DNA of 37,495 nt, from positions 1 through 37,495 of IMG/VR virus record IMGVR_UViG_3300021438_000037; one strand, written 5' to 3'. Positions 1 to 36,233 of the stretch are shown here, piece after piece. The number at the start of each line of letters is the position of its first letter. Position 1 is the first letter of the stretch. The notes below the pieces were generated by a model. The model was not told the DNA's origin. It saw nothing but the letters and a program-made list of their open reading frames with translations, and searched no databases. Source of the DNA: a virus. The translations under genes were made by a program, and so were the position numbers.

Positions 1-99
1 CGTGCTGACCTCATTCGGCTACGCATGACCGACCCTAAGAGGTATGAGGCCTTGTCTGATGACATTATGGCTGCATATAACGAAGGTCGGGTTAAATAG
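1..99 (+). CDS. Scaffold protein, C-terminal part (continues from 36824)
   Basis: The frame is open from base 1 to a TAG at 97-99 and has no start of its own. It encodes a helical, charged tail ending in DIMAAYNEGRVK, a C-terminus typical of podovirus capsid assembly/scaffolding proteins. The reading frame leaving the right edge (from 36824) ends on a full codon at 37495 and continues here in phase, giving one protein of 256 residues. Scaffold C-termini normally contact the coat protein, which fits the major capsid gene 55 bases downstream. The joint reads Arg-Arg-Arg; one repeated CGT codon could be an assembly overlap. Confidence 0.85.
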   Translation, partial: RADLIRLRMTDPKRYEALSDDIMAAYNEGRVK

Positions 100-154
100 T
101 CGCCTACGGCTCCCGCTGTAAGCGCTTAATAATTTATTTTTAAGGAATTTATAT

Positions 155-1078
155 ATGGCTCTCGGTACTGCTCACGTAACTAAAACCACTGCGGCGACAT
201 TTATCCCCGCACTGTGGTCTGATGAAATTGTTGCTGCCTATCAGAAAAATCTGGTTATGGCAAATCTTATCAAGAAGATGAACTTCAAAGGCAAGAAAGG
301 TGACACCGTTCACATTCCTGCGCCTACTCGTGGTTCTGCTTCTGCTAAGAGCGCCTCTACTCAGGTAAATCTGATTGCTGCAACTGAATCGGAAGTTATC
401 GCCTACATCAACAAGCACTATGAATATAGCCGCTTGATTGAAGATATTGTGGAAACACAAGCTCTGTCCTCGCTGCGTAGCTTCTACACAGAAGATGCTG
501 GTTATGCCCTTGCTCGTCAAGTGGATAGCGACCTCATTGCTCTGGGTCGTGCTGTTAACGGCGGTGGTGGCACTACTGCCTATTCTGGTGCTTTCTCCGG
601 TGCTGATGGTACTACCGCTTATGTGGCTGGTACAAACAGTGGTTTTGCAGCTCTGACTGATGCAGCAATTCGTCGTTCCATCCAGCGTTTGGATGATTCT
701 GACGTTCCTATGGATAACCGCTTCTTGGTGGTTCCTCCTTCCAGCCGTAACACCTTGATGGGTATTGCACGTTTCACTGAGCAAGCCTTTGTTGGCGAAG
801 CCGGTGCAAACAACACTATCCGTAACGGTGAAATTGGTAATGTGTATGGCGTTCCCGTGTTTGTCACCAGCAATGCTGACACCACTTCGGGTTCTACTGC
901 TACTCGTATCGCTTTGATGGGCCACAAGGACTTCGCAGTTCTGGTGGAACAACAAGCTGTTCGTGCTCAAACGCAATACAAACAAGAGTATCTAGGTACT
1001 CTGTTCACTGCTGACACCCTGTACGGTGTTCAGGAGCTGCGTGACGGCGCTGCTGTAGCTTTGGCTGTCCCGGCCTAA
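155..1078 (+). CDS. Major capsid protein
   Basis: A 307-residue protein that should form the HK97-fold icosahedral shell. The N-terminus (ATFIPALWSDEIVAAYQKN, then a stretch with GKKGDTVHIP) is the pattern of podovirus major capsid proteins. The position directly after the scaffold gene is the standard order. The ATG is preceded by a clear AAGGA Shine-Dalgarno at about 141-145. A strong hairpin terminator follows nine bases after the stop, so scaffold and capsid look like the end of one transcript. No long extra domain is seen. The call rests on the N-terminal pattern, length and position; the precise capsid subfamily is not assigned. Confidence 0.9.
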   Translation: MALGTAHVTKTTAATFIPALWSDEIVAAYQKNLVMANLIKKMNFKGKKGDTVHIPAPTRGSASAKSASTQVNLIAATESEVIAYINKHYEYSRLIEDIVETQALSSLRSFYTEDAGYALARQVDSDLIALGRAVNGGGGTTAYSGAFSGADGTTAYVAGTNSGFAALTDAAIRRSIQRLDDSDVPMDNRFLVVPPSSRNTLMGIARFTEQAFVGEAGANNTIRNGEIGNVYGVPVFVTSNADTTSGSTATRIALMGHKDFAVLVEQQAVRAQTQYKQEYLGTLFTADTLYGVQELRDGAAVALAVPA

Positions 1079-1086
1079 AGCTAGAT

Positions 1087-1116
1087 GGTCAGCTTCTTCG
1101 GAGGCTGGCCTTTTTT
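1087..1116 (+). terminator. Rho-independent terminator after the capsid gene
   Basis: A 10-bp stem (arms 1087-1096 and 1101-1110, three G-T wobbles) is closed by a C(TTCG)G tetraloop and followed by six T residues at 1111-1116. UUCG loops are unusually stable in RNA, so this is a strong intrinsic terminator. It sits 9 bases after the capsid stop, presumably capping the scaffold-capsid transcript. Confidence 0.9.
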
Positions 1117-1154
1117 CTATTCTTTTGTAAGAAAGCATATAACAAAGGTACATC

Positions 1155-1316
1155 ATGGCTAAATTTAAATGCGTACATACAGGACAAGTATACGAATATT
1201 TCACTGACCACGACATTGAATCAATGTTGGAGCATGATGAATATGAATATGTAGAAGAAGAGGATGCTGAAGAAGAAGCACCTAAACCTCGCAAAACACG
1301 TAAAGGAACGAAATGA
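1155..1316 (+). CDS. Small acidic hypothetical protein downstream of capsid
   Basis: A 53-residue protein starting MAKFKCVHTGQVYEYF. A short N-terminal half with one Cys is followed by a very acidic run (about residues 33-42, mostly Glu and Asp) and a basic tail (KPRKTRKGTK). An AAAGG at 1144-1148 lies just before the ATG, and the stop overlaps the next start (ATGA at 1313). Small proteins of this charge pattern often follow phage capsid genes. No function is recognised. The gene is beyond the capsid terminator, so it needs readthrough or an unseen promoter. Confidence 0.65.
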   Translation: MAKFKCVHTGQVYEYFTDHDIESMLEHDEYEYVEEEDAEEEAPKPRKTRKGTK

Positions 1317-2341
1317 CTTCTGTAACCCTTGCTTCTGGTGCTGTAAACAGCTCAGCAGACCTTGCTATAAAGGTTAATAGCACAACTAAAGTTCTTTCTT
1401 TTAATACGTCTGGTGCTTATGGGCTAGGAACTACTCCTAGTTATGGAACAGCAGGACAAGTTCTTACTTCTGCTGGAACAGGAGCTACTCCTACTTGGCA
1501 AAGCGATATTAGTGGTAATGCTGCTACAGCTACGTTGGCTACCAATGCAACCAATGCCACTAATGCTACCAATGCCACGAATGCTACCAACGCCACATAT
1601 GCTACTTCAGCAGGGAGCGCAACTACGGCAACTAGCGCCACTAGCGCTACAACAGCTACAAACCTAGCAGGCGGAGCAGCTAATCGTATTGCTTACCAAA
1701 CAGGCTCAGGAGCAACAGCGTTCCTTACAGCTCCTTCTACCACAGGTTATGTACTTGGATGGACAGGTTCTACTATTGATTGGGTAAGTGCTCCAGCGGC
1801 TTCTACTACGAATAATATTTCTGGTGGGACTGCTGGCGTACTGCCTTATCAATCTGCTACTGGAACTACTGGTTTTACTGCTGCTGGAACTTCAGGCCAA
1901 ATTCTAACTTCGACAGGAACAACTGCTCCTGTATGGACGAGTACTCCTACTCTTGGAACACCAGCATCAGGTAATTTAAGCAATTGTACGGCTGATGGAA
2001 CTGACCAAGTTGGTTTTAAAAATATTCCACAAAATAGTCAAGCTGCTTCTTACACCTTAGTTTTGTCGGATGCTGGTAAACATATTTATCATCCAGCTAC
2101 TGATGCTAATGCACGTACATATACAATTCCAGCAAATAGTAGTGTTGCTTATCCTATTGGTACAGCTCTAACTTTTCTAAATATGACAGCACAAGTAGTG
2201 ACAATTGCTATAAATACTGATACAATGTATTTATCTAGTACAGGAACAACTGGTTCACGTTCGCTGGCTCAATATGGCTCAGCTACAGCTATTAAAATGA
2301 CAGCAACAACGTGGCTTATCTCTGGGAGTGGTTTGACATGA
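1313..2341 (+). CDS. Tail fibre-like structural protein (module 1)
   Basis: A 342-residue Ala/Thr/Ser/Gly-rich protein with the repeat motif AGQVLTS..G..PTW, common in phage tail fibres. A seven-unit Thr-Asn-Ala repeat lies at about residues 77-97. The C-terminal 130 residues (from GTPASGNLSNCTADGT to WLISGSGLT) are clearly homologous to the C-terminus of the fibre protein at 32126-33958. In both, the stop overlaps the ATG of an adhesin-like gene as ATGA. It is likely a trimeric beta-structured fibre or collar presenting the next gene product. Assignment to fibre is by composition and motif; which virion part it occupies is inferred. Confidence 0.75.
   Translation: MTSVTLASGAVNSSADLAIKVNSTTKVLSFNTSGAYGLGTTPSYGTAGQVLTSAGTGATPTWQSDISGNAATATLATNATNATNATNATNATNATYATSAGSATTATSATSATTATNLAGGAANRIAYQTGSGATAFLTAPSTTGYVLGWTGSTIDWVSAPAASTTNNISGGTAGVLPYQSATGTTGFTAAGTSGQILTSTGTTAPVWTSTPTLGTPASGNLSNCTADGTDQVGFKNIPQNSQAASYTLVLSDAGKHIYHPATDANARTYTIPANSSVAYPIGTALTFLNMTAQVVTIAINTDTMYLSSTGTTGSRSLAQYGSATAIKMTATTWLISGSGLT
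1541..1603 (+). repeat. 9-bp tandem repeat, 7 units (Thr-Asn-Ala codons)
   Basis: Seven imperfect copies of a 9-base unit, consensus ACCAATGCY, run without gaps inside the fibre gene. Each encodes Thr-Asn-Ala (Thr-Tyr-Ala in the last). Gain or loss of a unit keeps the frame, so length variation among relatives is possible. It is coding, not a CRISPR or origin repeat. Confidence 0.85.
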
Positions 2342-3201
2342 GTGGTGCGCTGCAAGCTGTATATCAAAATTTAAGAAGTTTTGGTGTTACAGGTTCACAA
2401 TCTTATACCACGGCTGGAACTTATTCTTGGATTGCGCCAACTGGAGTAACTTCTGTTTCTGTTGTTGCTGTTGGTGGCGGCGGGTCTGGCGCAGGAGGTT
2501 TCCGTGCCTGTCTTCCATGCTGTATGACTTGTGTGCCCGCCGGTGGTGGAGGCGGTGGTGGTGCATTGGCCTACCGTAATAACTACACTGTAGTTCCCGG
2601 AAATACTTATACCGTTGTAGTTGGCGCTGGTGGCACAGGCTCAGGTGTCAATGGTGGTGGTTCTTCTTTTGCTGGAGCATTTACTGCTGGTGGAGGACAA
2701 AGCGCAGTGAATTATTCGTACTGCGGAAGAACTGGTGGCGCACCCTCTGGGACGTATACAGGCGGTTTTAGCGGCGGAACCGGAAGCGCAATGACCCAGT
2801 GGATTGCTCCTTATGGTTGCACCTCTCGCGCAGGTGGTGGTGGTGCCGCCGGTTATGCGGGCAACGGCGGGGATGGCAACAATTCCTCAGTACCTACAGG
2901 TGGTGGCGGTGCTGGCGGTGCGGCTTCAACTACGGGCGGGTCTGGTCGTCAAGGCGGCGGCGGTGTGGGCTTGCTAGGGCAGGGGGCCAGTGGCACCTTT
3001 GGTGGTGGAGGAGGCTCTGGCGGTTCCTCTGCCACTTATATTGCTGCTTGCAACTCTACCGCAACACCCGGTGGTGTTTATGGTGGCGGTGGTGGTCAAG
3101 GGTCAGCTACATTCTACGGTACAGGCGGAATAGGTGCAGTTCGTATAATTTGGCCCGGAACTTCACGTACTTTCCCATCAACCAATGTAGGGTCGCCATG
3201 A
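2338..3201 (+). CDS. Glycine-rich tail adhesin-like protein
   Basis: A 287-residue protein. I start it at the ATG of the ATGA overlap with the fibre gene, because the paralogous gene at 33955 begins the same way (MSG..L); an in-frame ATG at 2311 is less likely. After a domain with SYTTAGTYSWIAPTGVTSV (about 21-40), the rest is dominated by poly-glycine tracts. These tracts are separated by short variable loops and suggest stacked polyglycine-II helices, as in the T-even-type gp38 receptor-binding adhesins. Seven cysteines are present, four crowded at C58, C61, C62 and C65. Likely a receptor-binding tip carried by the preceding fibre. Family is inferred from composition. Confidence 0.7.
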   Translation: MSGALQAVYQNLRSFGVTGSQSYTTAGTYSWIAPTGVTSVSVVAVGGGGSGAGGFRACLPCCMTCVPAGGGGGGGALAYRNNYTVVPGNTYTVVVGAGGTGSGVNGGGSSFAGAFTAGGGQSAVNYSYCGRTGGAPSGTYTGGFSGGTGSAMTQWIAPYGCTSRAGGGGAAGYAGNGGDGNNSSVPTGGGGAGGAASTTGGSGRQGGGGVGLLGQGASGTFGGGGGSGGSSATYIAACNSTATPGGVYGGGGGQGSATFYGTGGIGAVRIIWPGTSRTFPSTNVGSP

Positions 3202-3671
3202 ACTTATATATTGAAATTAGAGATGGACAAACCATCAACCATCCTGCTTTTGAATATAATTTAATCGAAGCATTTGGAACAGTTCCTAATACATGGGAAC
3301 CATTTGTGCGAATTGAAAAACCTACTCCAAGTTTGTATCAAATTCTTGAAAGTGAAGAACCAACATATCAAAAAGTTAATGGTGTTTGGACAGATGTTTG
3401 GGCACTTCGTGATATGACTTCTGAAGAAAAAGCCGCTAAGCAACAACCCATAAAAGATGCTTGGGCTGCTAAAGAGCAGGCATCCAACTGGGCCGCATGG
3501 ACTTTTGATGAAAACACTTGTACATATCAGCCTCCAATCCCACGTCCAACAGATAGACTCGTTATTTGGAGTGGTACTAATAACAATTGGGTTGACCGAC
3601 CTCAAAAACCTACTGATGGAAAACAGTATAAAATGGACTTCTACACCTCTTCTTGGGTAGAAATAATTTAA
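3198..3671 (+). CDS. Small tail-fibre-associated protein
   Basis: A 157-residue protein beginning MNLYIEIRDGQTINHPAFEYN, with the start in an ATGA overlap with the adhesin gene. It has a central charged segment (EEKAAKQQPIKDAWAAKEQ) and a Trp-rich C-terminus with two similar proline/aspartate-rich pieces ending SSWVEII. Proteins of this architecture occur beside tail fibre genes in many aquatic phages and are thought to be fibre-associated or assembly proteins. That role is inferred from position only. The longer open frame extending upstream to 2799 overlaps the glycine-rich gene and is not used. Confidence 0.7.
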   Translation: MNLYIEIRDGQTINHPAFEYNLIEAFGTVPNTWEPFVRIEKPTPSLYQILESEEPTYQKVNGVWTDVWALRDMTSEEKAAKQQPIKDAWAAKEQASNWAAWTFDENTCTYQPPIPRPTDRLVIWSGTNNNWVDRPQKPTDGKQYKMDFYTSSWVEII

Positions 3672-3686
3672 TTTTAGGAACCTATC

Positions 3687-4394
3687 ATGGTAAAAACTGT
3701 TATTAACAAATCAAAAGCATGTAAAGCTGCTGAAGCTGTTGCTGAAGTGGTAGCGAATACGCAACTTCAAGTAGCCTTTCATTTTCCTTGTCCAATCTAT
3801 ATTATTGAGCGCCCTGACTTCTTAGAAATAGTAAATCAAGTGTCAGAGGAAAATCTTGATGTTTCTCGTAAAGACCATAATTTGAATGAGATTTATCCTG
3901 TATACATGAGTGACAGTTATTATGCTGACCCTCGTTTAGCTAAGTTTTCTGAATTTATTGGTGCTACTGCTTGGAATATTCTTAATGAACAGGGATATGC
4001 AATGCAGGATAAAGGAGTTTCATTTACTGAGATGTGGACACAAGAACATCACAAGCACTCAGCAATGGATGCACATGTTCATGGATTTGGCTCACAAATT
4101 GTAGGTTTCTATTTCCTTGAAACTCCTGAAAATTGCTCCCATGTAGTGTTTCATGACCCTCGTGCAGCTAAGGTGCAAATAGACCTTCCTGAACAAGATG
4201 TTAATATAGCAACCCCTGCTAGTAAAATGATTAACTTTACGCCTAAGCCCGGAATGATGATATTTGCAAACGCTTGGCTTATGCACTCGTTTACTCGTCA
4301 TGCTGCTGAATTGCCAATAAAGTTTGTTCATTTCAACCTAACCGTTGTTAATCAAACACAAACTAATTCTTTACCTGCGGCTGAAGTAATATGA
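3687..4394 (+). CDS. Putative 2OG-Fe(II) oxygenase
   Basis: A 235-residue protein resembling the phage/cyanophage 2-oxoglutarate-Fe(II) oxygenase family known as CHP02466 (PF13759-like). Visible features are a His pair (HVH, H130 and H132), then VGFYFLETP, VVFHDPR, and a C-terminal strand with PGMMIFANAWLMHSF (H200) and IKFVHFNLTV. H130 or H132 and H200 would be iron ligands. Lys212 sits where an Arg usually binds the 2OG carboxylate. An AGGA lies just before the ATG. The substrate is unknown, and the position among tail genes is typical of such phage enzymes. Loss of activity through the Arg-to-Lys change cannot be excluded. Confidence 0.65.
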   Translation: MVKTVINKSKACKAAEAVAEVVANTQLQVAFHFPCPIYIIERPDFLEIVNQVSEENLDVSRKDHNLNEIYPVYMSDSYYADPRLAKFSEFIGATAWNILNEQGYAMQDKGVSFTEMWTQEHHKHSAMDAHVHGFGSQIVGFYFLETPENCSHVVFHDPRAAKVQIDLPEQDVNIATPASKMINFTPKPGMMIFANAWLMHSFTRHAAELPIKFVHFNLTVVNQTQTNSLPAAEVI

Positions 4395-4624
4395 ATAAGT
4401 ATTCCATCCGCTTCAATAAATCTCGTGGTCAAGAAGGCAGAGGGACTATGGAACACTGCTGGCGTGTATTTGAAAACGATAAAGAATACTTGTTTAAGCA
4501 TTTTATAATTAATGTGCCGTCACATAGCGAGAAGGAAGCCAATAGCGAAGATTGGAATGTTGTGTGCCAAGGAATAATGACTATAGATAGAACAACATCT
4601 ACAGCTACTATAAACTGGGACTAA
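4391..4624 (+). CDS. Conserved small hypothetical protein
   Basis: A 77-residue protein beginning MNKYSIRFNKSRGQEGRGTM. Its start overlaps the preceding stop as ATGA, implying translational coupling. It contains VWRVFENDKEYLF-like sequence (CWRVFENDKEYLFKHFIIN) and a C-terminal WNVVCQGIMTIDRTTSTATI strand pattern, suggesting a small mainly beta fold. Similar small proteins occur next to structural genes in aquatic phages. No function is recognised and no membrane segment is present. Confidence 0.7.
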   Translation: MNKYSIRFNKSRGQEGRGTMEHCWRVFENDKEYLFKHFIINVPSHSEKEANSEDWNVVCQGIMTIDRTTSTATINWD

Positions 4625-4625
4625 A

Positions 4626-4859
4626 ATGGAACTTCAAGCCTTAATTAATATTGTTCTCTCCGTTCTTATGTCTATTGTAGGATGGCTTGCTAGAGAATTA
4701 TGGACAGCGGTGCAGAATCTTAAGGAAGACCTTTACAAACTCCGTGAGGAAATTGCTAAAGATTATATTCCTAAAGAAGACTTTGCTTCATTTAAAAGTG
4801 AATTGTTCACTGCTCTTCGCCGTATCGAAGATAAACTAGAAAGTAAGGAAGATAAATAA
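4626..4859 (+). CDS. Small membrane-anchored coiled-coil protein
   Basis: A 77-residue protein. An N-terminal hydrophobic segment (about residues 5-22, INIVLSVLMSIVGWLA) is followed by a highly charged helix (WTAVQNLKEDLYKLREEIAK) and a Lys/Glu-rich tail. This one-TM-plus-coiled-coil plan is common in podovirus structural regions. Holin-like or virion-membrane roles have been proposed for such proteins, but nothing here proves either. The stop overlaps the next start by one base (TAATG). Confidence 0.65.
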   Translation: MELQALINIVLSVLMSIVGWLARELWTAVQNLKEDLYKLREEIAKDYIPKEDFASFKSELFTALRRIEDKLESKEDK

Positions 4860-5023
4860 TGGCTACTATGAAAAAACCTAAGACAAAAGAAGAGAAAGTA
4901 ATGCACGAGTATAAGACAGGAACTCTGCATTCTGGCAAGAAAGGCCCTGTTGTCACTTCCCGTAAACAAGCCATTGCTATTGCCTTGAGCGAAGCTGGTA
5001 AAACAAAGAAAAAGAAGAAATAA
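4859..5023 (+). CDS. DUF6496-like small basic protein
   Basis: A 54-residue protein with the pattern VMHEYKTGTLHSGKKGPVV followed by RKQAIAIALSEAGK and a poly-Lys tail. This matches the small DUF6496-type family seen in phages and bacteria; function is unknown. It starts in a TAATG overlap with the previous gene and ends directly before the ATG of the tail adaptor gene at 5024, so it belongs to the same tight operon. Its strong positive charge would allow nucleic-acid binding, but that is speculation. Confidence 0.7.
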   Translation: MATMKKPKTKEEKVMHEYKTGTLHSGKKGPVVTSRKQAIAIALSEAGKTKKKKK

Positions 5024-5686
5024 ATGGCACTCCCAACTTACCTTCAATTGGTAAACGAAGTATTGGTTCGTATGCGTGAACCAACGGTATCTACTGTCAA
5101 TGAAAATACTGTGTCTGCTCTTGTAGGTAAGTTTATTAACGATACTAAGCGCTACATGGCAGATGCTTATGATTGGGATGCTTTTAATACTTCTTTTAAT
5201 ATAACAACTACTGCTGATAATAGTGGCCCATACACCATTACAGGCTCAGGCTTACGATTTAAAATTAATAATGTTCTTGATATTACATCGTATGCTGAAC
5301 TAACACCAATAACTCGTAATGAACTAGACCTGTATTTATATGGCACTTCTAGTACACAGAAAACTGCTCCGGGCAATTATGTACTTACTGGTGTAGATAC
5401 AAACGGAGATACACAAGTAAACTTCTGGCCTGTGCCTGATAAAGCCTACGTTATGCGCTTTAGCATGATGATTCCAGAAGCAGATTTGTCTGGTGATAAT
5501 GATGTAACCAAACTGGCTAAAGAGCCTATTATCCTTGGTGCTTTGGCTCGTGCTCTTATTGAACGTGGCGAAGATGGTGGTATTACTAGCTCAGATACCT
5601 ATGCTTTGTTTAAACAATGCTTGGGTGATATTATTGCCCTAGAACTGGCTCGTTCACCTGAATTTGATGCTTGGGAAGAGGTATAA
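5024..5686 (+). CDS. Head-tail adaptor / tail accessory protein
   Basis: A 220-residue protein beginning MALPTYLQLVNEVLVRMREP. The N-terminal helical region with DAYDWDAF (about residues 45-55), a central beta region and a C-terminal helical segment (LALARALIERGE-like, then CLGDIIALELARS) match podovirus head-completion/adaptor proteins of the P22 gp4 or T7 gp11 role. These form a ring under the portal. It is followed directly (TAATG overlap) by the larger hub-like protein, the same order as the adaptor-hub pair in other podoviruses. The role is inferred from pattern and order. Confidence 0.65.
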   Translation: MALPTYLQLVNEVLVRMREPTVSTVNENTVSALVGKFINDTKRYMADAYDWDAFNTSFNITTTADNSGPYTITGSGLRFKINNVLDITSYAELTPITRNELDLYLYGTSSTQKTAPGNYVLTGVDTNGDTQVNFWPVPDKAYVMRFSMMIPEADLSGDNDVTKLAKEPIILGALARALIERGEDGGITSSDTYALFKQCLGDIIALELARSPEFDAWEEV

Positions 5687-7233
5687 TGGCTTTACCACTA
5701 CAAGCATTTTCTATTTCAGCTCCGGGCTTCTATGGGCTTAATACCCAAGATAGTAGCCTAGACCTGCCATCTGGATATGCTCTTATTGCCAACAACTGTG
5801 TCATTGACCAGTATGGTCGTGTAGGAGCACGTAAGGGATGGGCGCCAATTAACTCCACTTTGGCAGCATTGGGAAGTAATGATGTTCAAGCTATTGGTGA
5901 GCTTGTAACCCGTGACGGTACGTCTTACACCATATGTGCAGGTAATAATAAGCTGTTTAAGCTAGTTGGTAGCACACTAACAGAACTTACCTATGGCGGT
6001 GGTGGTACAGCTCCAACCATTACAGCAAATTATTGGCAGTTTGCCATGTTGCTCAATGTGTTTGTTATGTTCCAAAGCGGACATGACCCCATATACTTCG
6101 ACCCTACGGTGTCCACAACCACGTATAAGCGCATTAGCGAGGCTGCTACATACTCAGGTACGGTACAGAAGTCTAACACGGTTCTAGCGGCCTATGGACG
6201 CTTCTGGCACGCTGATACAGCTACGGATAAGCTCACCATCCAGTGGTGTGATATTAATAGTCCATTTAACTATGCCACAGGCACTTCAGGTACGCTAGAC
6301 ACGTACACTGTATGGCCCAAAGGTGGTGACAGTATTGTTGCCTTGGCTGCACATAACAATAGTTTGTTTATCTTTGGTAAACGTAACATTTTGGTATATA
6401 CAGGAGCTAATAATCCTGCTACAATGACACTGGCAGATACTATTGTTGGTATTGGTTGTGTTGCTCGTGATAGCATTGCGTACACTGGTACAGATTTGAT
6501 ATTCTTGTCTGAAACTGGTGTTCGTAGCATTATGCGTACAATTCAGGAAAAAAGTAGTCCAATTAATGACTTGTCGAAGAATGTTCGTAATGATTTGACA
6601 GAGTTGGTTAAGAATGAAACAAATACAACTAAGATTAAGAGTGTATACTCCACTCGTGATGCTATTTATTTGGTAACGCTTCCTTCGTCCTTTATTACAT
6701 ATTGCTTTGATACAAAGAACTTCCTGCAAGACGGTTCTAGTCGTGTAACGACATGGGACGGTATTAATCCTACAAGTATGTTCTTCCGTTCAGACGGTAC
6801 TTTGCTTATGGGAAAACCCGGATATGTTGCTTCCTATGGTGGATATAAGGACAATGGGCTTGCATATCGTATGCAATATTATACTAACCATCTTGACCTT
6901 GGCGACCCTTCTGTTACTACGGTACTAAAGAAACTAACAGCTACGCTGGTAGGAGGTAGTAATCAAAGTATTACGTTTAAGTGGGGTTATGATTTTAAAG
7001 GTAATTATAACTCAGCAACTAAACTTATTCCTAACCAAAGTATTGCTTATTTTGGTGTAGATGAGTATAATATGTCTGCTACTTATTCTAATGGTTCACT
7101 AATTCAATCATTGTCTGTATTCCCTAACGGAGCAGGTAAGGTTATTCAAACTGGTTATGAAACAGATATTTTTGGTTCTGCTTTAAGTATTCAGAAGATT
7201 GAGATATTTGCTAAAAACGGCAAACTAATTTAA
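5686..7233 (+). CDS. Tail hub / stabilisation protein (gp10- or gp12-like)
   Basis: A 515-residue protein starting MALPLQAFSISAPGFYGLNT. The ATG is in a TAATG overlap with the adaptor gene; an ATG 15 bases upstream is in frame but less likely. The N-terminal signature (LPSGYALIANNCVIDQYGRVGARKGW is read as segments of it) and repeated beta-strand blocks (for example NNSLFIFGKRNILVYTG and FLSETGVRSI) suggest a beta-propeller. This is as in P22 gp10 or T7 gp12 tail nozzle proteins. It would extend the short tail below the adaptor ring. The C-terminus ends KIEIFAKNGKLI, a typical beta end. Confidence 0.7.
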   Translation: MALPLQAFSISAPGFYGLNTQDSSLDLPSGYALIANNCVIDQYGRVGARKGWAPINSTLAALGSNDVQAIGELVTRDGTSYTICAGNNKLFKLVGSTLTELTYGGGGTAPTITANYWQFAMLLNVFVMFQSGHDPIYFDPTVSTTTYKRISEAATYSGTVQKSNTVLAAYGRFWHADTATDKLTIQWCDINSPFNYATGTSGTLDTYTVWPKGGDSIVALAAHNNSLFIFGKRNILVYTGANNPATMTLADTIVGIGCVARDSIAYTGTDLIFLSETGVRSIMRTIQEKSSPINDLSKNVRNDLTELVKNETNTTKIKSVYSTRDAIYLVTLPSSFITYCFDTKNFLQDGSSRVTTWDGINPTSMFFRSDGTLLMGKPGYVASYGGYKDNGLAYRMQYYTNHLDLGDPSVTTVLKKLTATLVGGSNQSITFKWGYDFKGNYNSATKLIPNQSIAYFGVDEYNMSATYSNGSLIQSLSVFPNGAGKVIQTGYETDIFGSALSIQKIEIFAKNGKLI

Positions 7234-7241
7234 GGAAAATT

Positions 7242-7517
7242 ATGTCAAACTATACAAAGGCAACGAACTTTGCATCGAAAGATAGCCTCCCTTCTGGTAA
7301 TACCTTAAAGATTATTCGTGGTACAGAAATTGATACAGAGTTTACAAACATTGCAACAGCTATTGCATCTAAACTCGACGGTGTTCTAACCAACTTCACC
7401 ATTGCTGAGGTGTCTGGAACATTGCAATTTAAATATAGTGGAACAACGGTGGCAACACTAGATAGCTCAGGAAATTTAACAACCTTGGGCAATATTGTTT
7501 CTAACGGTACAATTTAA
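7242..7517 (+). CDS. Small structural-region protein
   Basis: A 91-residue protein starting MSNYTKATNFASKDSLPSGN with a good AAGGA Shine-Dalgarno. It contains KIIRGTEIDTEFTNIATAIA and a C-terminal beta repeat (TVATLDSSGNLTTLGNI) like the units that cap phage fibres. Short proteins with this N-terminus are frequent in aquatic podovirus tail regions and are thought to be minor virion proteins. No catalytic motif is present. Confidence 0.65.
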   Translation: MSNYTKATNFASKDSLPSGNTLKIIRGTEIDTEFTNIATAIASKLDGVLTNFTIAEVSGTLQFKYSGTTVATLDSSGNLTTLGNIVSNGTI

Positions 7518-7526
7518 GGAAGATAT

Positions 7527-9434
7527 ATGCCAAATAGTGCTGCTTTTACAGCTCCAGTTGTTGCCCCTGTAGCTGCTCCTACTTATGCAGGTGCAGAAGG
7601 TTTTGTTACTCCTTCATGGGTTGATAATGCTCGTCAAACCATTGGTACTGGCGTAGAGCCTGTCTATCCCAAGAAACTAGGTGGACATGGTGGTGATACG
7701 CTTATTGACGATACCTCCAAGGCTCCTATTGGTTATCGCTACGATAATGGAAAGAGTGAATATGTTTACCTAGACTTGGCAGGCAAGCCTACAGGACAGG
7801 TTGAAAACCGTGGTAATGGAATCTTTGGACAAGTTACCGATATGGCTAAGACACTGGCTCCTTTGGCTATTGCAGCCCTAGGTGCTAATTACCTCCCCGG
7901 CTTGCTTAGTGGCGCTGAAGGAGGCGGTGGTGGCTTAATTGAAGGCTTAACTGGCGGAGGTGGTGCAGGTACGTCTATCAATGAGATGATTGCTTCTGGC
8001 CTTGCTCCCGGCTCTGCTGGAGCTGCTGGGGCTGCTTCAGGCTTGCTAACAGGCTCTGAACTGGCTGTTGCTGCTGGCTTGTCTGGCACTGCTGCTACAA
8101 CTCTAGCTTCTACCCTTGGAGCGGGAGCTGGTAGTGTTCTTAATGCAGAACAAATTGCTTCTTTAGGTGGAGCAGATATTGCTGGTTTGTCTAATACCGC
8201 TGCTGCCAATTTAGCTTCTTCTGTTGCTGGTGGAATGCCTGCTCTACAAGCTGCTGCCGCTGCTGGGGCTGGCGGGCTACTCACAGGTGGTGCTGGTGGT
8301 GCTTCAGTCAATGAAATGGTAGCTTCAGGAACTGCTCCGGGCTCTGCTGGTGCTGCCGGGGCTGCTGCTGGTGCTTTGACGCCTGCTGAGCTTGCTGCTG
8401 CTACAGGAACTGTAACTAGCGGTAGTTTGTTATCTGGACTAGGTGGAACTTCTTTACTAAGCTCCATTACAAACCCCTTGGCTGCTTTAGCTTCATCGGC
8501 TGTGTCTGCCCTTAATACTGCTGGTGTAGGTGGTTTAGTTACTGCTGCTCTTCCAGCTATTGCAGGTGTGGTACAAGGAAACTCCGCTGCTGATGCTGCT
8601 CGTATTCAAGCAGACGCTATTACCAAAGCTGCACAAACTGCTGCTGATGCTGCTAAGTTTAAGCCAGTAGGTGTTACCACTGCTTTTGGTTCTAGTAACT
8701 TTGGCTACGATGCTAATGGCAACCTAACCAGTGCAGGTTATCAGCTTACCCCTGAACTTGCTGCTCAGCGTGATGCTATTCTCAAAGCAGCAGGCACTAC
8801 TGGCATGGATTGGATGAAGAACACCCAAACTGCTGGTCAAGGTTTGTTTAATCTGGGACAAAGCTACATTGCTAAAACCCCAGAACAAGCTGCTGCTGAA
8901 TGGATGGCAGCTCAGCAGAAGGTGCTACAACCTGCTCAAGACACTGCTTATGCACGTATGCAGCAGAACTTGGCTAATACAGGCCGTGGTGGGTTGTCTA
9001 TTGCTCAAGGCACTGGCATGGGAGCTGCTAATCCAGAAGCACAAGCCTATTACAATGCTCTAGCTCAGCAGAACAACCAATTGGCTGCTCAAGCTCAGGC
9101 TGAAGGACGTGCTGCTACAACCTTTGGACAAGGCTTGCTAACTGGTGGTCTTGATTTGGTTAGCCAAGGATATAATCCATATAAGACACAGTTTGGCACT
9201 GCTCAAAGTGTTGAACAAGCTGGTCAGAATGCTCTGGACATTGGTTCTGCCCTTGGTGGTCGTGCTGCCACAGCAGGCGCTAATGCTGGAAATACTTTGT
9301 ATCAAGGAGCAGTAGCAGCTTCTGGCCCAACAGCTAAGGCAAATGCTTATAATCCTTATGCTGACCTCCTAGCAGGGGCAGCTAAAGCGCCTACAATTGC
9401 AGATTTCTTACAAACGTGGATTAATAAGGTTTAA
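7527..9434 (+). CDS. Internal virion / DNA-ejection protein, Ala-Gly-rich
   Basis: A 635-residue protein preceded by AAGGAAG. Residues 1-110 are ordinary; about 110-350 is extremely Ala/Gly-rich and hydrophobic; the rest is helical with Gln/Ala repeats. A block of about 45 residues is duplicated (from about 140 and from about 250, 110 residues apart, both with NEM(I/V)ASG.APGSAGAAGAA). Being first of three large Ala/Gln-rich proteins between tail and lysis genes, it fits the ejection proteins (P22 gp7/16/20 or T7 gp14-16 role) that pass through the host envelope. No lytic transglycosylase motif was seen. Confidence 0.6.
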   Translation: MPNSAAFTAPVVAPVAAPTYAGAEGFVTPSWVDNARQTIGTGVEPVYPKKLGGHGGDTLIDDTSKAPIGYRYDNGKSEYVYLDLAGKPTGQVENRGNGIFGQVTDMAKTLAPLAIAALGANYLPGLLSGAEGGGGGLIEGLTGGGGAGTSINEMIASGLAPGSAGAAGAASGLLTGSELAVAAGLSGTAATTLASTLGAGAGSVLNAEQIASLGGADIAGLSNTAAANLASSVAGGMPALQAAAAAGAGGLLTGGAGGASVNEMVASGTAPGSAGAAGAAAGALTPAELAAATGTVTSGSLLSGLGGTSLLSSITNPLAALASSAVSALNTAGVGGLVTAALPAIAGVVQGNSAADAARIQADAITKAAQTAADAAKFKPVGVTTAFGSSNFGYDANGNLTSAGYQLTPELAAQRDAILKAAGTTGMDWMKNTQTAGQGLFNLGQSYIAKTPEQAAAEWMAAQQKVLQPAQDTAYARMQQNLANTGRGGLSIAQGTGMGAANPEAQAYYNALAQQNNQLAAQAQAEGRAATTFGQGLLTGGLDLVSQGYNPYKTQFGTAQSVEQAGQNALDIGSALGGRAATAGANAGNTLYQGAVAASGPTAKANAYNPYADLLAGAAKAPTIADFLQTWINKV

Positions 9435-14638: not shown

Positions 14639-16549
14639 TTAAATTTCACACACACCAGCGGTGCAGGCCAACATCTGAGCACCTTCGACATTATCGGTGT
14701 TCTCAATGAACGAATCCCAATCAATGCTCTTAGGCATAGCCTTAAACATCGTTTCATAAGTTGTTTCATCAATCGTTTCATACGGAGCCTGCCGATATGT
14801 TCCTCCGTCCATAGGCAAGAAGCTCACACCTGTAATCTCGTTGAAGTTTTCCCATACAGCAGCACCCACTGAAGGCCATTCATCTTCTTTGATAGAAATG
14901 GTTACAGAAGGCTTATGCTCGCAGTAGTAGCGTTGGTACATTAGCCACAATTCTAAATGTTCTGCTGCACTGAGCTGCTCACGGAATAAAGCATTCTTAT
15001 TCACCTTAACAGGGAAACTAAACACTGTAGTGGTATCAGGCTTCATAACACAAGGCTCACTGTCAAACCCCTGATTCTTCAAGAAGGTTGTCAAGGGGTC
15101 TTTATTATCTCCACGAATCCGTCGAATAAAGAACTCGCTATGTTGGGGATGAAGACCACTAGCAGTACCAGCAAGCTGGCTAACAGTTCCTTCTGGCTTA
15201 ATAGCGGTGATAGCAACAGAAGCATTAATATTAAGGGCATCAGCAATAGAAGAATTGATAAATACAGCACGTTGTTTTAACCTTTCAAGCAAACCGGGCA
15301 ATGAGGCACTATAAGCATTATTGAGCAAAGGATTGTCCAGAATGCCTGTCATCGACACGCCAAGCAAGCGCTCCTGCTCTGTGTTGTTCTGCCACACCTT
15401 ACGCAAGTAGGGGAAACTGGTCAATGTGCTCTGGAATGTTCCCAGAATGGTTGCCATTTCAATTTTATTCAACAAGGTTTCTTCTGTATCTTCAGGGCGC
15501 ACAATAACGCTGCTCAGGTTACAGAATTGATAAGGACGAAGAATAATCTCTGAGCAAGGATTTGTTCCCCACTCGTGACCACCCTCACGGCGTCCATTTC
15601 GTAGCACCTGAAGCTCTGACGCATAACGATTGAAAATACCACGCTCTCCGCTATGGCTTTCATAAATGCTGCTCCATTCCTTCATGAATGCACCAACATC
15701 AGGCATCTCGTTGTACACAGCACTGTTGTTAGCCAAAGCACGTTGTCCATTAGTGTCCCACCAGTTGCCTGCCTTGGCTGAAGCCATACGGTTATCAGAC
15801 AAGTCGGACAAGGAAATCATAGCACTTCGACGAACACCACCAACGACAACCACTTCTCCAATTTTACAAAGAATGTCGTGCGCTTCGAGGCTTGTAAGTT
15901 TTCTACCGGCTGCTCCTTTAAACTTAGAAATAACGTATTTGAATAGGTCTTCCAAAGGGGCAGGGCCACTAGCTCGACCTCCAAACGTCTTAAGACGTGT
16001 TCCCGCTGGTCGTACTTTTGATACGTCCCACTTAGGCACTTCTCCACTATAGAGTAGAGCAACCACTTGGCGAAGCGCTTTAGCCCAACCTTCTTTGCTA
16101 TCAGAAACAACAATAGTTGAAGCACTATCAAACAAGAAGTCAGGAACCTCTGGCAATTTATTAACATATTTCTGCTCCACGCTATAGCCTACACCAGTGC
16201 CACACAACAAAATGTACATGGCTTCATCAAAACACTTGGGGTCATCAATTGGCAAGTAGCTGCAATTGTAGCCAGCAATGTTCTGACGCTCAAGGGCCTC
16301 ACCTGCTGTCATGATGCAGCGCATAGACGGTACAACTTCAAGATTTGTCACTGCTGTTTCCAGACGGAAGCGCAGGTCAGGAGGCAGCTTGTAGGAATGT
16401 TTGTCCCACAGGTGCTTCTCCATGAAGTTGAAATAACGAGCTACGGTTTCATCCCAATTCTCCCGGCGCTGCTCATTGTCCAGAAAACGTGCATAGCGGC
16501 TCTTAGCAATGTATGTCTGGTATGGCGTCATGGTAGTATTTTTAGTCAT
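14639..16549 (-). CDS. nrdJ: Adenosylcobalamin-dependent (class II) ribonucleotide reductase
   Basis: A 636-residue monomeric-type ribonucleoside-triphosphate reductase that makes dNTPs. Key residues are visible: C96 in AGYNCSY; C332 and E334 in NPCSEI, with C343 in FCNLSS, for the radical and redox site; and a C-terminal redox pair C629/C634 in ACTAGVCEI. The length and the CxxxxC tail match the Lactobacillus-type RTPR, so activity needs host-supplied B12 coenzyme. No separate small subunit (NrdB) is present, consistent with class II. An AAGGA sits six bases before the ATG, and the start overlaps the preceding small gene by 8 bases. Confidence 0.93.
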   Translation of the reverse strand: MTKNTTMTPYQTYIAKSRYARFLDNEQRRENWDETVARYFNFMEKHLWDKHSYKLPPDLRFRLETAVTNLEVVPSMRCIMTAGEALERQNIAGYNCSYLPIDDPKCFDEAMYILLCGTGVGYSVEQKYVNKLPEVPDFLFDSASTIVVSDSKEGWAKALRQVVALLYSGEVPKWDVSKVRPAGTRLKTFGGRASGPAPLEDLFKYVISKFKGAAGRKLTSLEAHDILCKIGEVVVVGGVRRSAMISLSDLSDNRMASAKAGNWWDTNGQRALANNSAVYNEMPDVGAFMKEWSSIYESHSGERGIFNRYASELQVLRNGRREGGHEWGTNPCSEIILRPYQFCNLSSVIVRPEDTEETLLNKIEMATILGTFQSTLTSFPYLRKVWQNNTEQERLLGVSMTGILDNPLLNNAYSASLPGLLERLKQRAVFINSSIADALNINASVAITAIKPEGTVSQLAGTASGLHPQHSEFFIRRIRGDNKDPLTTFLKNQGFDSEPCVMKPDTTTVFSFPVKVNKNALFREQLSAAEHLELWLMYQRYYCEHKPSVTISIKEDEWPSVGAAVWENFNEITGVSFLPMDGGTYRQAPYETIDETTYETMFKAMPKSIDWDSFIENTDNVEGAQMLACTAGVCEI

Positions 16550-31570: not shown

Positions 31571-32122
31571 ATGGACGATAAACTTCTCATCCTTGCGGAG
31601 GTTGTAGGGAAGCTGAAGGCTCAGGTAAAGGAGCTTTCTTCTACAACCGCTGAGGTTTCCAAGCAGGAAGGCCCACAAGGAGCACAAGGCCCTATGGGAG
31701 CCACTGGTAAGCAGGGGCCTAAAGGAGAACGAGGGGAAAGAGGCGCTGATGGCGTAGACGGTAAGGATGGGGCTGATGGACAAGATGGAACTTCTGTTGT
31801 AGATGCGTACATTGCAGCAGATAACAGCCTTGTTTTAAAACTATCCAATGGGAATGAAATTGACACAGGCCCAATACTGGACAGTTTCAACAATGCTACA
31901 TACATTGCAAATTCTCAAGCTGGCTTCGACCCTTCAACACTTCCTTTTAGTTCTTCAACAACAACACCTACAGAAATTATTGTTAAACAAAATAATGCTT
32001 GGGTAAGAACATCGTGGAGTACGTTTACAAGTTGGCTGGGCACTATATCAACCCCGGGCGTAACGGTAAACAGTGAACTTATTACAGTTAATGGAGCAAC
32101 AGTTTATGTTAATGGAGCTTAA
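31571..32122 (+). CDS. Collagen-like fibre protein
   Basis: A 183-residue protein. Residues 1-30 form a helix suited to a coiled coil; residues 34-75 contain 14 uninterrupted Gly-X-Y triplets (GPQ, GAQ, GPM to GTS), a collagen-like triple helix. This is followed by a globular beta segment (VVDAYIAADNSLVLKLSNG) that resembles trimerisation domains of phage fibres. Proline occurs only in the X position. It follows the portal and precedes the large fibre, so it probably forms a trimeric head or tail fibre. Confidence 0.8.
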   Translation: MDDKLLILAEVVGKLKAQVKELSSTTAEVSKQEGPQGAQGPMGATGKQGPKGERGERGADGVDGKDGADGQDGTSVVDAYIAADNSLVLKLSNGNEIDTGPILDSFNNATYIANSQAGFDPSTLPFSSSTTTPTEIIVKQNNAWVRTSWSTFTSWLGTISTPGVTVNSELITVNGATVYVNGA

Positions 32123-32125
32123 TAC

Positions 32126-33958
32126 ATGGAACACGTAGTTATCGGCTTAGGTGAAATTCACCGACCACATAATTGGGAATGGGCTGATGCAACTGCTCGT
32201 GCTAATGAGGTTGTAACCGACACAACCCTTATTAACTGCTTTGGTTTACAGCTTTCTGACAATTCTCTTTGGAGGTTATCAGCAGCAGCCCCTGCCGTGT
32301 GGACTTCAGTGGCAGGGGGTGGAACTATTGGAAGCATTGCTTCTGCTGATGGTTCAGTGACAGTGACCACCGTTGGGAGCGCTGTAGACCTTTCTGTTCC
32401 AGCAGCTACTGCTACCACTGATGTTGTGATACAAGTACGCAACACCACTGGAGCCACACTAACCAAAGGTACTGTAGTTTATATTTCAGGAGCTACAGGA
32501 CAAATTCCTACGGTTTCTAAAGCATTGGCTACATCGGATGCAACCTCTGCTCAAACCTTGGGTGTGCTTTCTGCTAACATAGCAAACAATGCTAACGGTT
32601 ATGTAACTATTACAGGTATTCTTACTGGAATGGATACCTCAGCCTTTGCTGATGGGGCTCAACTGTATTTAAGTGGAACAACAGCAGGAACATATACTTC
32701 GACAAAAACCCTTGCACCAACACACTTGGTTTATGTTGGCATTGTAGAATATTCTCATGCCACCCAAGGTAAAATATTTGTTAAGGTTCAAAATGGCTAC
32801 GAATTGGATGAACTCCATAACGTAGATGCGGATGCTCCTGCCACTGGACACACCATTCTGTATAATGCTTCTAATAGCTTGTGGGAAAGCCGTTCTATTA
32901 CTTATTCTGACCTCACAGGCACAGTTCCTACATGGAATCAAAACACCACTGGTAATGCTTCTAATGTTACAGGAATTGTAGCTATAGCTAACGGAGGTAC
33001 AGGCACTACTACTCCCGGACTCGTAGCAGGCACGAATGTAACCATTTCAGGTACATGGCCTAATCAAACTATTAATTCTACTGCTAGTGGTTCTGGTACA
33101 GTTACTTCGGTTGCTGCGTCAGTTCCTTCTTTTCTATCAGTTACAGGAAGCCCAATAACTAGCTCTGGAACACTAGCAATTAGTTATTCTGGAACTGCTC
33201 TTCCAATTGCTAATGGTGGAACAAACTCTACTGATACTCCTACGGCTGGTGGTATTGGCTACGGAACAGGAACTGCACACGCATATACCTCCGCTGGTAC
33301 AGCAGGGCAAGTGCTTACATCTAACGGAGCTTCTGCGCCTACTTGGACAACGGTTAGTGGAAGTGGAACCGTAACATCTGTTGCTGTGTCTGGAGGAACT
33401 ACTGGATTAACTACTTCTGGTGGCCCAATTACTAGCTCTGGAACAATTACTTTAACTGGTACGCTTGCTGTTGCAAACGGAGGAACAGGTGTAACAACAT
33501 CTACTGGTTCCGGGTCGAATGTATTAAGTACAAGTCCAACACTTGTAACTCCTCTTCTTGGCACACCAACATCAGGAATATTAAGCAACTGTACAGTAGA
33601 TGGGACAAATCCTGTAGGCTATTTGAATGTTCCACAAAATGCCCAAGGAACTTCTTATACACTTGTTGCTTCGGATGCAGGTAAGTTTATTTATAACTCT
33701 GCTGGTACTAGCGTAACTTATACCATTCCTCTAGCATCTGTTGTAGCCTTTCCTATTGGAACAGTTATTAGTTTTGTTAATATGTCATCTAGTCCAGTTA
33801 CTATTGCTATAAGTTCTGGTTCAGATGTTTTATGGCTTGCAGGAACAAATACAAGCGGTAGCCGAACATTGGGACAATATTCTTTAGCGTCAATTACTAA
33901 AGTAGCAGGACTTGCTTCTAATGGTGTGTGGCTTATTGCTGGAGCTGGTTTAACATGA
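32126..33958 (+). CDS. Large tail fibre-like protein (module 2)
   Basis: A 610-residue Gly/Ser/Thr/Ala-rich fibre with repeated beta units (for example IANGGTGTTT, SGSGTVTSVA and AGQVLTSNGASAPTW). GGAG precedes the ATG. The N-terminal region with HRPHNWEWADATARAN may attach to the virion. Its C-terminal 130 residues are homologous to those of the fibre at 1313-2341, and the stop overlaps the next adhesin gene as ATGA in both. This is a paralogous, module-level duplication. Probable host-recognition fibre shaft. Confidence 0.8.
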   Translation: MEHVVIGLGEIHRPHNWEWADATARANEVVTDTTLINCFGLQLSDNSLWRLSAAAPAVWTSVAGGGTIGSIASADGSVTVTTVGSAVDLSVPAATATTDVVIQVRNTTGATLTKGTVVYISGATGQIPTVSKALATSDATSAQTLGVLSANIANNANGYVTITGILTGMDTSAFADGAQLYLSGTTAGTYTSTKTLAPTHLVYVGIVEYSHATQGKIFVKVQNGYELDELHNVDADAPATGHTILYNASNSLWESRSITYSDLTGTVPTWNQNTTGNASNVTGIVAIANGGTGTTTPGLVAGTNVTISGTWPNQTINSTASGSGTVTSVAASVPSFLSVTGSPITSSGTLAISYSGTALPIANGGTNSTDTPTAGGIGYGTGTAHAYTSAGTAGQVLTSNGASAPTWTTVSGSGTVTSVAVSGGTTGLTTSGGPITSSGTITLTGTLAVANGGTGVTTSTGSGSNVLSTSPTLVTPLLGTPTSGILSNCTVDGTNPVGYLNVPQNAQGTSYTLVASDAGKFIYNSAGTSVTYTIPLASVVAFPIGTVISFVNMSSSPVTIAISSGSDVLWLAGTNTSGSRTLGQYSLASITKVAGLASNGVWLIAGAGLT

Positions 33959-35958
33959 GTGGTATTCTAGCTCAACTTTCAAGCGTTGCTACAAAGGTAT
34001 TAGACCCTTTGTGGGAATATGTTACCCTACTTCTGCATGGTGACGGGACTAACGGCGCTCAAAATAATACGTTTCTCGATAGTAGCACAAACAACTTTAC
34101 TATCACCCGCAACGGCAATACTACGCAAGGTACGTTTACGCCGTATGGTGCTAATTGGAGTAACTACTTTAGCAGTAATGCCTACATAACCACTACTGGA
34201 GGAACCGCTACCGCAATGGGTTTGGGAGATTTCACATGGGAATTATGGGTAAACGTTCCCGCATCTGGATTGTATCAAACTTTTATTGAAAATCGAAGCA
34301 ATCAAGCAACGGGTAGTACTGATGGATTTTATTTTGGGTTAAATACTGGAACGCTTACACCTATAGTGTATACAACGTCCTTGGTTTTAAGTTCATCAGT
34401 CGCCTTAACCGTAAACACTTGGAATCATGTTGCACTTGTACGCTCTGCTGGTACATTACAAATTTGGATAAATGGTGCTTCTGGTGGAACTGTTTCCAAT
34501 AGCACCAACTTAACAAGCCAACCAGTTTATTTTGGTAATTCCACAGGTACAAGTCTTGCTCTTACAGGACATATCTCTAACGTCCGTATGGTAAAAGGAA
34601 CTGCGGTTTATACAGCAGCTTTTACACCCAGTACAATACCCTTAACCGCTATTAGTGGAACATCTTTGCTTACTTGCCAATCAAATCGTTTTATTGACAA
34701 CAGTAGCAACGCTTTTACTATTACTCGTAGTGGTTCTCCTGCCATTCAACACTTTAGTCCTTTTAATCTATATTCTCAATATAGAGATAAAACTATTGGT
34801 GGGTCAGGGTACTTTGATGGTACGGGTGATTATTTAAACTTTACTGATACAAGTAATGTAATGGATTTGGGTGGTGCAACTGCATCGTTTGAGGCTTGGA
34901 TATATCCTACTGCTGCGACTTGTGTTTTGATGACAAAGTATGGTGGCGCTACTACTTATAGTATTACAAACGGCATTGAATATACAATTGCTTTAGTTTC
35001 ACAGCAATTTTTAATGTATTACAACGTAGCGGGTACTTTTGGAACTTTAGCAGACCCAACTACAGGACGAGCATTAAATCAGTGGTATCACATTGTTGTA
35101 GCATCAAACACCACAACTTTATCGTTGTATGTAAATGGAACAAGAGTAGTAACTGCAACTGCTGGTATTACAAAACCAACAACTAGAACTACTGTTAGAT
35201 TTGGTTTGGATTCTGCTACTACTTATTTAAACGGGTATTTATCAGATGTTAGGTTTATACAAGGCACTGGTGCTTACGATGCTTCTCAAACAACAATTAC
35301 TATACCAACTGCTCCACTTACCGCTGTAACTAATACTAGCCTTTTACTTTCCTACACCAATGCTGGCATCTACGACAACACCTCAATGAACATTTTGGAG
35401 ACTGTTGGTAATGCACAGGTAAGTAATACAAAATCTAAATTTGGAGGAACATCTCTTTATTTTGATGGAACTGGAGATTATTTAACTATTCCAGCACAAC
35501 AGAATTATAATTTTGGAACTGGTTCATTCACTATTGAATTCTGGATAAATTATACATCTGTTACAACATATGCAGGTTTATTTGATTCCCGTGCCGCTGG
35601 TGGAACTACAGCAAACTGGGCAATAGGTTTATACACAGTTAGTGCAACAAATAGAATTGATTTTATTTATGGAACAACTAGATTAACAACAACTTCTGCT
35701 ATTACTGCAAATACATGGACGCATGTTGCTATTGTAAGGTCTGGAGGGGTTATAAAAGTTTATATTAACGGAACCGCAGATGCCACTACTGCAACATCAT
35801 CAGTCGCTATAGATGCAGGTTCATCAACGGTTTGGATTGGAGCAGCAAAAGACCCTTATTATTTAAACGGTTATCTTGATGATTTTCGTATTACTAAAGG
35901 TGTTGCTCGTTATACAACTAATTTTAGTGTTCCAACACAATCTTTTATAAATCAATAA
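33955..35958 (+). CDS. LamG-repeat adhesin (receptor-binding candidate)
   Basis: A 667-residue protein; the start is the ATG of the ATGA overlap (an in-frame ATG at 33928 is possible). Three concanavalin/LamG-like domains are visible, each with W-N-HVA(L/I)VR, Y(I/V)NG and YLNGY(L)(S/D)D(V/F)R-type strands (around residues 90-210, 310-450 and 510-655). LamG folds bind glycans, so it is a strong candidate for the tip that contacts host polysaccharide. Carried by the fibre encoded just upstream. No enzymatic residues identified; a depolymerase is not shown. Confidence 0.78.
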   Translation: MSGILAQLSSVATKVLDPLWEYVTLLLHGDGTNGAQNNTFLDSSTNNFTITRNGNTTQGTFTPYGANWSNYFSSNAYITTTGGTATAMGLGDFTWELWVNVPASGLYQTFIENRSNQATGSTDGFYFGLNTGTLTPIVYTTSLVLSSSVALTVNTWNHVALVRSAGTLQIWINGASGGTVSNSTNLTSQPVYFGNSTGTSLALTGHISNVRMVKGTAVYTAAFTPSTIPLTAISGTSLLTCQSNRFIDNSSNAFTITRSGSPAIQHFSPFNLYSQYRDKTIGGSGYFDGTGDYLNFTDTSNVMDLGGATASFEAWIYPTAATCVLMTKYGGATTYSITNGIEYTIALVSQQFLMYYNVAGTFGTLADPTTGRALNQWYHIVVASNTTTLSLYVNGTRVVTATAGITKPTTRTTVRFGLDSATTYLNGYLSDVRFIQGTGAYDASQTTITIPTAPLTAVTNTSLLLSYTNAGIYDNTSMNILETVGNAQVSNTKSKFGGTSLYFDGTGDYLTIPAQQNYNFGTGSFTIEFWINYTSVTTYAGLFDSRAAGGTTANWAIGLYTVSATNRIDFIYGTTRLTTTSAITANTWTHVAIVRSGGVIKVYINGTADATTATSSVAIDAGSSTVWIGAAKDPYYLNGYLDDFRITKGVARYTTNFSVPTQSFINQ

Positions 35959-35960
35959 TT

Positions 35961-36233
35961 ATGCTTTACTCTAAATTTGGTTCAATTCCTAAAGAAGAAA
36001 CAGACGGCACAGAAGGCTGGATTGAGGTAGATTATCCTCCTACCGCTGGTGAGGGACAAGAGGTAGTTTGGTGGTTTCCCCCGGGATGGGTTGTACGGCC
36101 TGTAAAACCCGATGGAAACTGGTCATGGAGCCAATCTACGGAACAGTGGGTGGAATATTTTGTTGAAACCACTACGCTAGACGTGCAAAACACAGGTACT
36201 GACACAATTCAAGTAGGAACTACATTAACTTAA
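35961..36233 (+). CDS. Small Trp-rich protein after adhesin
   Basis: A 90-residue protein starting MLYSKFGSIPKEETDGTEGW, rich in Trp and Pro (VVWWFPPGWVVRP, NWSWSQSTEQWVEY) and ending with a beta repeat. It occupies the place that the 157-residue protein holds in the other fibre module and shares the Trp/Asp style of its C-terminus. A fibre-associated accessory role is plausible but unproved. Confidence 0.6.
   Translation: MLYSKFGSIPKEETDGTEGWIEVDYPPTAGEGQEVVWWFPPGWVVRPVKPDGNWSWSQSTEQWVEYFVETTTLDVQNTGTDTIQVGTTLT

Follow-up and report, generated by a model that had tools for sequence, protein, structure and literature searches.

Why does a single phage genome encode two fibres with a common type of C-terminal domain and an unlike adhesin gene behind each? 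Host range is usually determined by the fibre tip, and this genome appears to carry two such tips of unlike construction. The DNA in question, hereafter the window, is the whole of virus record IMGVR_UViG_3300021438_000037 (37,495 bases).

A preliminary description held that the two fibres share a homologous C-terminal domain of about 130 residues, an ATGA junction and an MSG start in the following gene. The homology is clear: the fibres are 57% identical over their last ~135 aa, with an alignment score of 356 against a best of 65 among 300 shuffles. The junction and start are likewise common to both, adhesin A beginning at 2338 (MSGALQ) and adhesin B at 33955 (MSGILA). The adhesins themselves differ as described, one polyglycine (Gly_rich_2, E 8e-14) and one with three LamG domains (Laminin_G_3 in three stretches, E 7e-54, 182.5 bits versus a gathering score of 27.6). 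The interval 1313-3671 does contain fibre A and adhesin A, but it holds three genes rather than two, the third being ATGA-coupled at 3198-3671. We call the shared fibre end the socket, the first 15–20 adhesin residues the plug, and the rest of the adhesin the tip. The features of the two modules are as follows.

1313..2341, +: fibre A, 342 aa; open reading frame whose C-terminus matches the minor tail protein family phrog_8780 (E 3e-9)
1934..2338, +: socket domain A, the last 135 aa of fibre A; predicted XD1 (T4 gp9/gp10-like) fold
about 2018-2332, +: well-predicted core of socket A, from the structure model
2338..2341, +: ATGA stop/start overlap of fibre A and adhesin A, read from the sequence; this junction class recurs in relatives
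2338..2382, +: plug of adhesin A, MSGALQAVYQNLRSF; helix predicted at residues 4-11
2338..3201, +: adhesin A, 287 aa, with plug, TNF-like domain and glycine-rich domain; Pfam Gly_rich_2, fold matches 7ypx and 9d93
3198..3671, +: third gene of module A (157 aa), coupled through ATGA and likely encoding a chaperone for the tip; in a similarity cluster, weak tail-fibre-assembly matches
3687..4394, +: 2OG-Fe(II) oxygenase, often beside Gly-rich modules; PF13759, E 6e-9
31571..32122, +: collagen-repeat protein upstream of fibre B; PF01391
32126..33958, +: fibre B, 610 aa; residues 76-240 kept at the portal-capsid slot of relatives
33551..33955, +: socket domain B, the last 135 aa of fibre B, by alignment to socket A
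33955..33958, +: ATGA stop/start overlap of fibre B and adhesin B, read from the sequence
33955..35958, +: adhesin B, 667 aa, with another plug type (MSGILAQLSS...) and three LamG/concanavalin-like domains; Laminin_G_3 in 3 stretches
35961..36233, +: third gene of module B (90 aa), its product likely a chaperone for LamG tips; homologous genes come after adhesins in L131, L150, L155 and L162

We propose that these genes form a modular connector. The fibre C-terminus, with its predicted XD1 fold, would serve as a socket, perhaps a trimer symmetric about a threefold axis. The next gene, overlapping at ATGA, would supply an adhesin that docks on the socket by its plug and carries, beyond the plug, an exchangeable, putatively receptor-binding tip; the third gene probably encodes a chaperone that folds this tip. 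A crossover upstream of the conserved socket and plug would bring in a new shaft, and one directly behind the plug a new tip. It is quite likely that this phage holds two such modules, each with socket, plug, exchangeable tip and probable chaperone, that they were separately acquired, and that the phage displays both its Gly-rich and LamG tips, or at least encodes both.

Two modules of probably separate origin in one genome

The scaffold gene forms one continuous frame across the joined ends of the record, a join that every one of its 79 matches in relatives also crosses, so the record looks like a circularly permuted, near-complete phage genome. Profile matches identify an SU10/P22-like portal and a phrog_267 capsid protein. 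Going round the circle, one meets the portal, the collagen-like protein, fibre B with its LamG adhesin and 90-aa gene, small genes, scaffold and capsid, then fibre A with its Gly-rich adhesin and 157-aa gene, and after these the 2OG oxygenase and tail genes. Modules A and B therefore lie only ~2.6 kb apart, flanking scaffold and capsid. The collagen-repeat protein stands directly 5' of fibre B in the same genome that encodes the 2OG-Fe(II) oxygenase. Elsewhere, a ribonucleotide reductase gene (14639-16549, -) matches B12-dependent (class II) models.

The modules had been described as a duplication, a view that the sockets contradict. Among the matches listed, socket A is nearest L083 (87%) and socket B nearest L150 (67%), whereas A and B are just 57% identical to each other. 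Since each socket is closer to those of other phages than to its partner, duplication in place was rejected, and by sequence the two modules look like separate acquisitions with sockets of different lineages. The suggestion that tips are swapped within this genome fares no better, because identity between the modules runs to 11 bases at most, short of what ordinary homologous recombination needs. The lack of any exact repeat longer than 11 nt between them also makes chimeric assembly of the record unlikely.

Carrying two modules need not mean mounting two tips. One module alone could be assembled in virions, the other being a recently acquired or decaying spare; this reading is compatible with the connector, contests only the two-tip part, and is possible if somewhat doubtful. 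Two fibre-adhesin modules are rare, occurring only in the window's own record and G012 among 53 long socket records (among the matches listed), and tandem spare adhesins exist elsewhere (L203, L310). Yet both modules here are intact, each with a full-length fibre, a coupled adhesin and a third gene, and neither has a stop or frameshift. In G012 (the record of L116; L318), one of the two sockets is divergent (E 5e-16). Tandem fibres with a single adhesin occur in G008 and G014.

The socket and the adhesin gene are linked in both directions

No Pfam model above its cut-off covers the socket domain, and in PHROGs it forms the end of phrog_8780 'minor tail protein' and of a few other families. A search with the domain returned at least 80 best-scoring viral loci, which with the window's own record make 81 records; since environmental contig collections are fragmentary, the figures that follow describe this sample rather than a population. 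In all 81 the socket ends exactly at the stop codon, at the extreme C-terminus of the fibre, and in most the downstream gene starts at ATGA or TAATG. The usual exception to a coupled adhesin is the first fibre of a tandem pair. In L103, L104 and L119, for example, tandem fibres both carry the socket and an adhesin follows only the last.

The reverse search made no use of the domain. A degenerate DNA pattern of the first 15 codons of A-type adhesins matched at least 120 sites in 119 contigs, all starting as ATGA, and among the matches listed a socket lay within 600 nt upstream of 117 of the 120. The three others are two second tandem adhesins (L203 and L310) and one site at a contig edge (L285), where the adhesin begins 33 nt from the stretch end. 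L234, which at first appeared to be a plug gene without a socket, was rejected as such: its socket is present and the fibre frame is disturbed upstream. L203 carries two adhesin genes of the same plug and tip type (4085 and 4959, +) in tandem behind one socket, and L310 has an adhesin-like repeat gene upstream of the adhesin found by its plug; these tandem genes are possibly spare or alternative tips.

Behind these sockets the tips take many forms. The 59 distinct adhesins among the matches listed comprise Gly_rich_2 (25), fn3 (11), Laminin_G_3 (8), SBBP beta-propeller (3), SPRY (1) and other types. A LamG protein of phage DSL-LC04 (L319, OR003939) matches adhesin B at 45% identity, beginning at residue 17, and sits in another gene context, which indicates that the LamG tip is also used without this plug.

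Carriers of the module

The module is not tied to the backbone of this phage. At 80 loci of capsid relatives (68-90% identity), the slot after the capsid is filled by unrelated fibre cassettes; the socket is absent from all stretches fetched for these loci and from the 21 capsid relatives searched whole. Conversely, none of 39 other socket records among the matches listed has a capsid or portal like this phage's. The plug search did recover contigs with this backbone, where the module sits either in the portal-scaffold slot (L259, L261, L289, L302, L311, L316) or beside tail genes (L205, L213, L218, L273, L297, L307, L315). In the portal-capsid slot of one backbone relative, L045, residues 76-240 of fibre B are kept at 68% identity in a fibre that ends without the socket.

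Socket domains also occur in bacterial genome contigs, including those of Afipia clevelandensis, Variovorax sp. JS1663, Novosphingobium arvoryzae and Sphingobium sp. DEHP117, which are presumably prophages. Limnohabitans phage YIMV22061 and Synechococcus phage S-B28 carry the socket with an overlapping next gene that starts MSG or MSL. Searches of named phages with record positions 1-8000 as DNA, and with adhesin A as protein, gave no matches. The 'minor tail proteins' of Gordonia phages were set aside as a distant form of the domain (~40% identity); in Yeezy the gene that follows lacks the plug and starts 4 bases past the stop.

Plug type covaries with socket type

Across 63 representatives among the matches listed, plug similarity tracks socket similarity with tip similarity controlled (partial Mantel r 0.24, p 0.0005, relatedness partly remaining). 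Where the tips of a listed pair are unrelated, plugs average 0.27 identity if socket identity is below 0.5 and 0.55 if it exceeds 0.8, relatedness again partly remaining. Plug class also follows the last five residues of the socket (Fisher p 4e-6, among the matches listed and with relatedness not removed). Specifically, 19 of 21 NxRxF-class plugs go with sockets ending in GSGLT, and 9 of 9 GGSYG plugs with sockets ending in GTALT or GTNVT, both counts being among the matches listed with relatedness not fully removed.

Conservation within the plug is a different matter. All 68 aligned loci have G3, Q6, N11, R13 and F15, but these residues were required by the search pattern and so are not independent evidence. 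Conservation at such positions is partly by construction, whereas the linkage to the socket is not. The plug is also modelled with modest confidence (pLDDT 55-65), which counts against the connector.

The socket is predicted to adopt the XD1 fold

The socket structure is a single-chain AlphaFold2 prediction with a mean pLDDT of 88, above 90 in the core (about residues 31-135). The model has the XD1 (T4 gp9/gp10-like) fold. Its matches include the C-terminal domain of the Pa223 capsid spike (PDB 9ny6, Z 13.1), a KP1 baseplate protein (Z 12.0), residues 79-180 of CBA120 TSP4 (Z 10.0), T4 gp9 (Z 9.2) and T4 gp10 (Z 8.8), while unrelated rows of the search fall below Z 4. As the best match is a capsid spike domain, the end domain may serve on capsids too. 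The TSP4 domain was named XD1 and occurs also in gp9 and gp10; its function is not fully understood, and it is an apparent spacer, partner binding by TSP4 being the work of XD2 and XD3 (PMC8825819). An XD1 fold alone is thus no proof of docking.

Adhesin A was modelled with a mean pLDDT of 73. The predicted structure combines the TNF-like and Gly-rich folds of Pam3 gp24-type fibres, matching gp24 itself (7ypx) at Z 18.6, with an rmsd of 2.7 over 192 aligned residues, 29% identity and a profile match at E 0.003. The Bxb1 tail-tip protein 9d93 follows at Z 13.7. gp38 is absent from the listed fold matches, and a weak match to phrog_863 is probably glycine-driven. Pam3 gp24 itself comprises N-terminal helices that dock on the baseplate, a TNF-like domain and a Gly-rich receptor-binding domain (PMC9608196).

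The shared domain could itself be the receptor-binding tip, recognizing glycans, with the next gene encoding another virion protein or else a chaperone, neither of them docked on it. This draws some credit from two secreted proteases with the socket fold, CpaA (Z 9.9) and StcE (Z 8.3), in which the domains are described as glycan-binding (PMC8825819). We nonetheless find this unlikely. The domain is conserved and the downstream protein varied, the opposite of what host-recognition pressure should produce; plug class tracks socket class across unlike tips; and adhesin A resembles the Pam3 receptor-binding fibre, not a chaperone.

Exchange occurs inside the adhesin gene

Comparing related junctions, as the preliminary description had proposed, revealed like sockets joined to unlike tips in 68 pairs among the matches listed. 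In these pairs DNA identity holds at 0.83-0.88 across the 45 nt that precede the ATG, drops to 0.74 over the 15 nt that follow it, lies near 0.5 as far as +45, and past +60 is no better than chance. This decay places the exchange boundary inside the adhesin gene, after the 15–20-codon plug. In the plug set, listed pairs whose sockets are nearly identical have a block of ~400 nt in common, with divergence on its upstream (shaft) side and on its downstream (tip) side alike. The idea that the shared end is an interchangeable socket is supported across many phages by the varied downstream adhesins and by a predicted fold known from phage tail attachment proteins, but the break lies 15–20 codons into the adhesin gene rather than at the ATGA.

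Such a block could be a mere recombination hot spot or translational-coupling element, transferred as a linked unit with no protein contact needed, as the high DNA identity through socket and start and the near-universal ATGA coupling among the matches listed would allow; conservation of the protein down to 51-60% socket identity, and the pairing of plug class with socket class, make this highly improbable. ATGA coupling is frequent in phage operons, a further point against the connector.

Third genes and neighbours

The third gene of module A is a recurrent partner: 86 of 115 genes downstream of plug-adhesins, among the matches listed, fall in its similarity cluster. With its weak matches to tail-fibre-assembly proteins, its product is likely a chaperone that folds the tip. 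In Pam3 the chaperone gp25 is a separate protein that forms a 3:3 complex with gp24 (PMC9608196); the 3198-3671 product matched neither gp25 nor any other solved chain. hhalign detected no homology between the third genes at 3198 and 35961. Among the matches listed, 25 of 106 other modules have a homologue of the 2OG-Fe(II) oxygenase ~0.5 kb past the adhesin, and it accompanies Gly-rich tips (23 of 68) more often than other tips (2 of 38; Fisher p 0.0007).

Relation to known adhesin systems

The connector is best read as working like the gp37-gp38 pair of T2-type phages with a different socket fold; membership of the gp37/gp38 family is not claimed. In T2, S16 and PP01, too, the adhesin is encoded apart, directly downstream of the distal fibre gene, and is mounted on the fibre end by its N-terminal part, the arrangement we infer here. 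T2 lacking gene 38 took the PP01 tip only when the N-terminal 113 aa of PP01 were swapped for those of T2 (PMC12892980). Unlike gp37-gp38, the modules here have a predicted XD1 socket, tips that include LamG, fn3 and propellers, carriers that include podovirus-type genomes, and a third gene after the tip. Searched against PDB sequences to E 1, the socket profile did not recover gp37, nor is gp37 among the socket fold matches. More broadly, gp37, gp38 and gp25 appear neither by sequence nor among the listed folds, and kinship could still exist.

Other systems share parts of this design. The predicted socket fold is that of CBA120 TSP4, T4 gp9 and gp10 (Z 8.8-10), but there XD1 is an internal domain, called a spacer, whereas here it is the last fibre domain beside a coupled adhesin gene. 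Pam3 gp24-gp25 resembles module A in the TNF-like and Gly-rich folds, the N-terminal helix and a possible chaperone gene after the adhesin; gp24 docks on the baseplate via a long helical bundle, while the plug here is short. In the branched tailspikes of Ackermannviridae (CBA120 TSP1-4), gp10-like domains also join exchangeable receptor-binding proteins (PMC8825819), although one protein there recruits others into a branch and here each fibre end has one adhesin. Alteromonas phages A5, V22 and P24, distantly related and of different tail types, have a host-recognition fibre and chaperone in common (PMC10579305); they share the whole fibre, whereas here the connector is common and the tips vary.

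The concept of a socket is well supported, and duplication and swapping within the genome are not. The finding is of interest for its breadth, and the observation is larger than first stated. It is about an even call whether an XD1 socket with a short plug is a connector standard among phages with unrelated capsids, through which tips of many folds circulate and some phages mount two at once. The connector would mark the boundary between fibre and tip in hundreds or more uncultured phages, so that tips could be located, sorted into classes and set against their hosts; whether tips travel between unrelated phages, as has long been supposed, could then be tested gene by gene.
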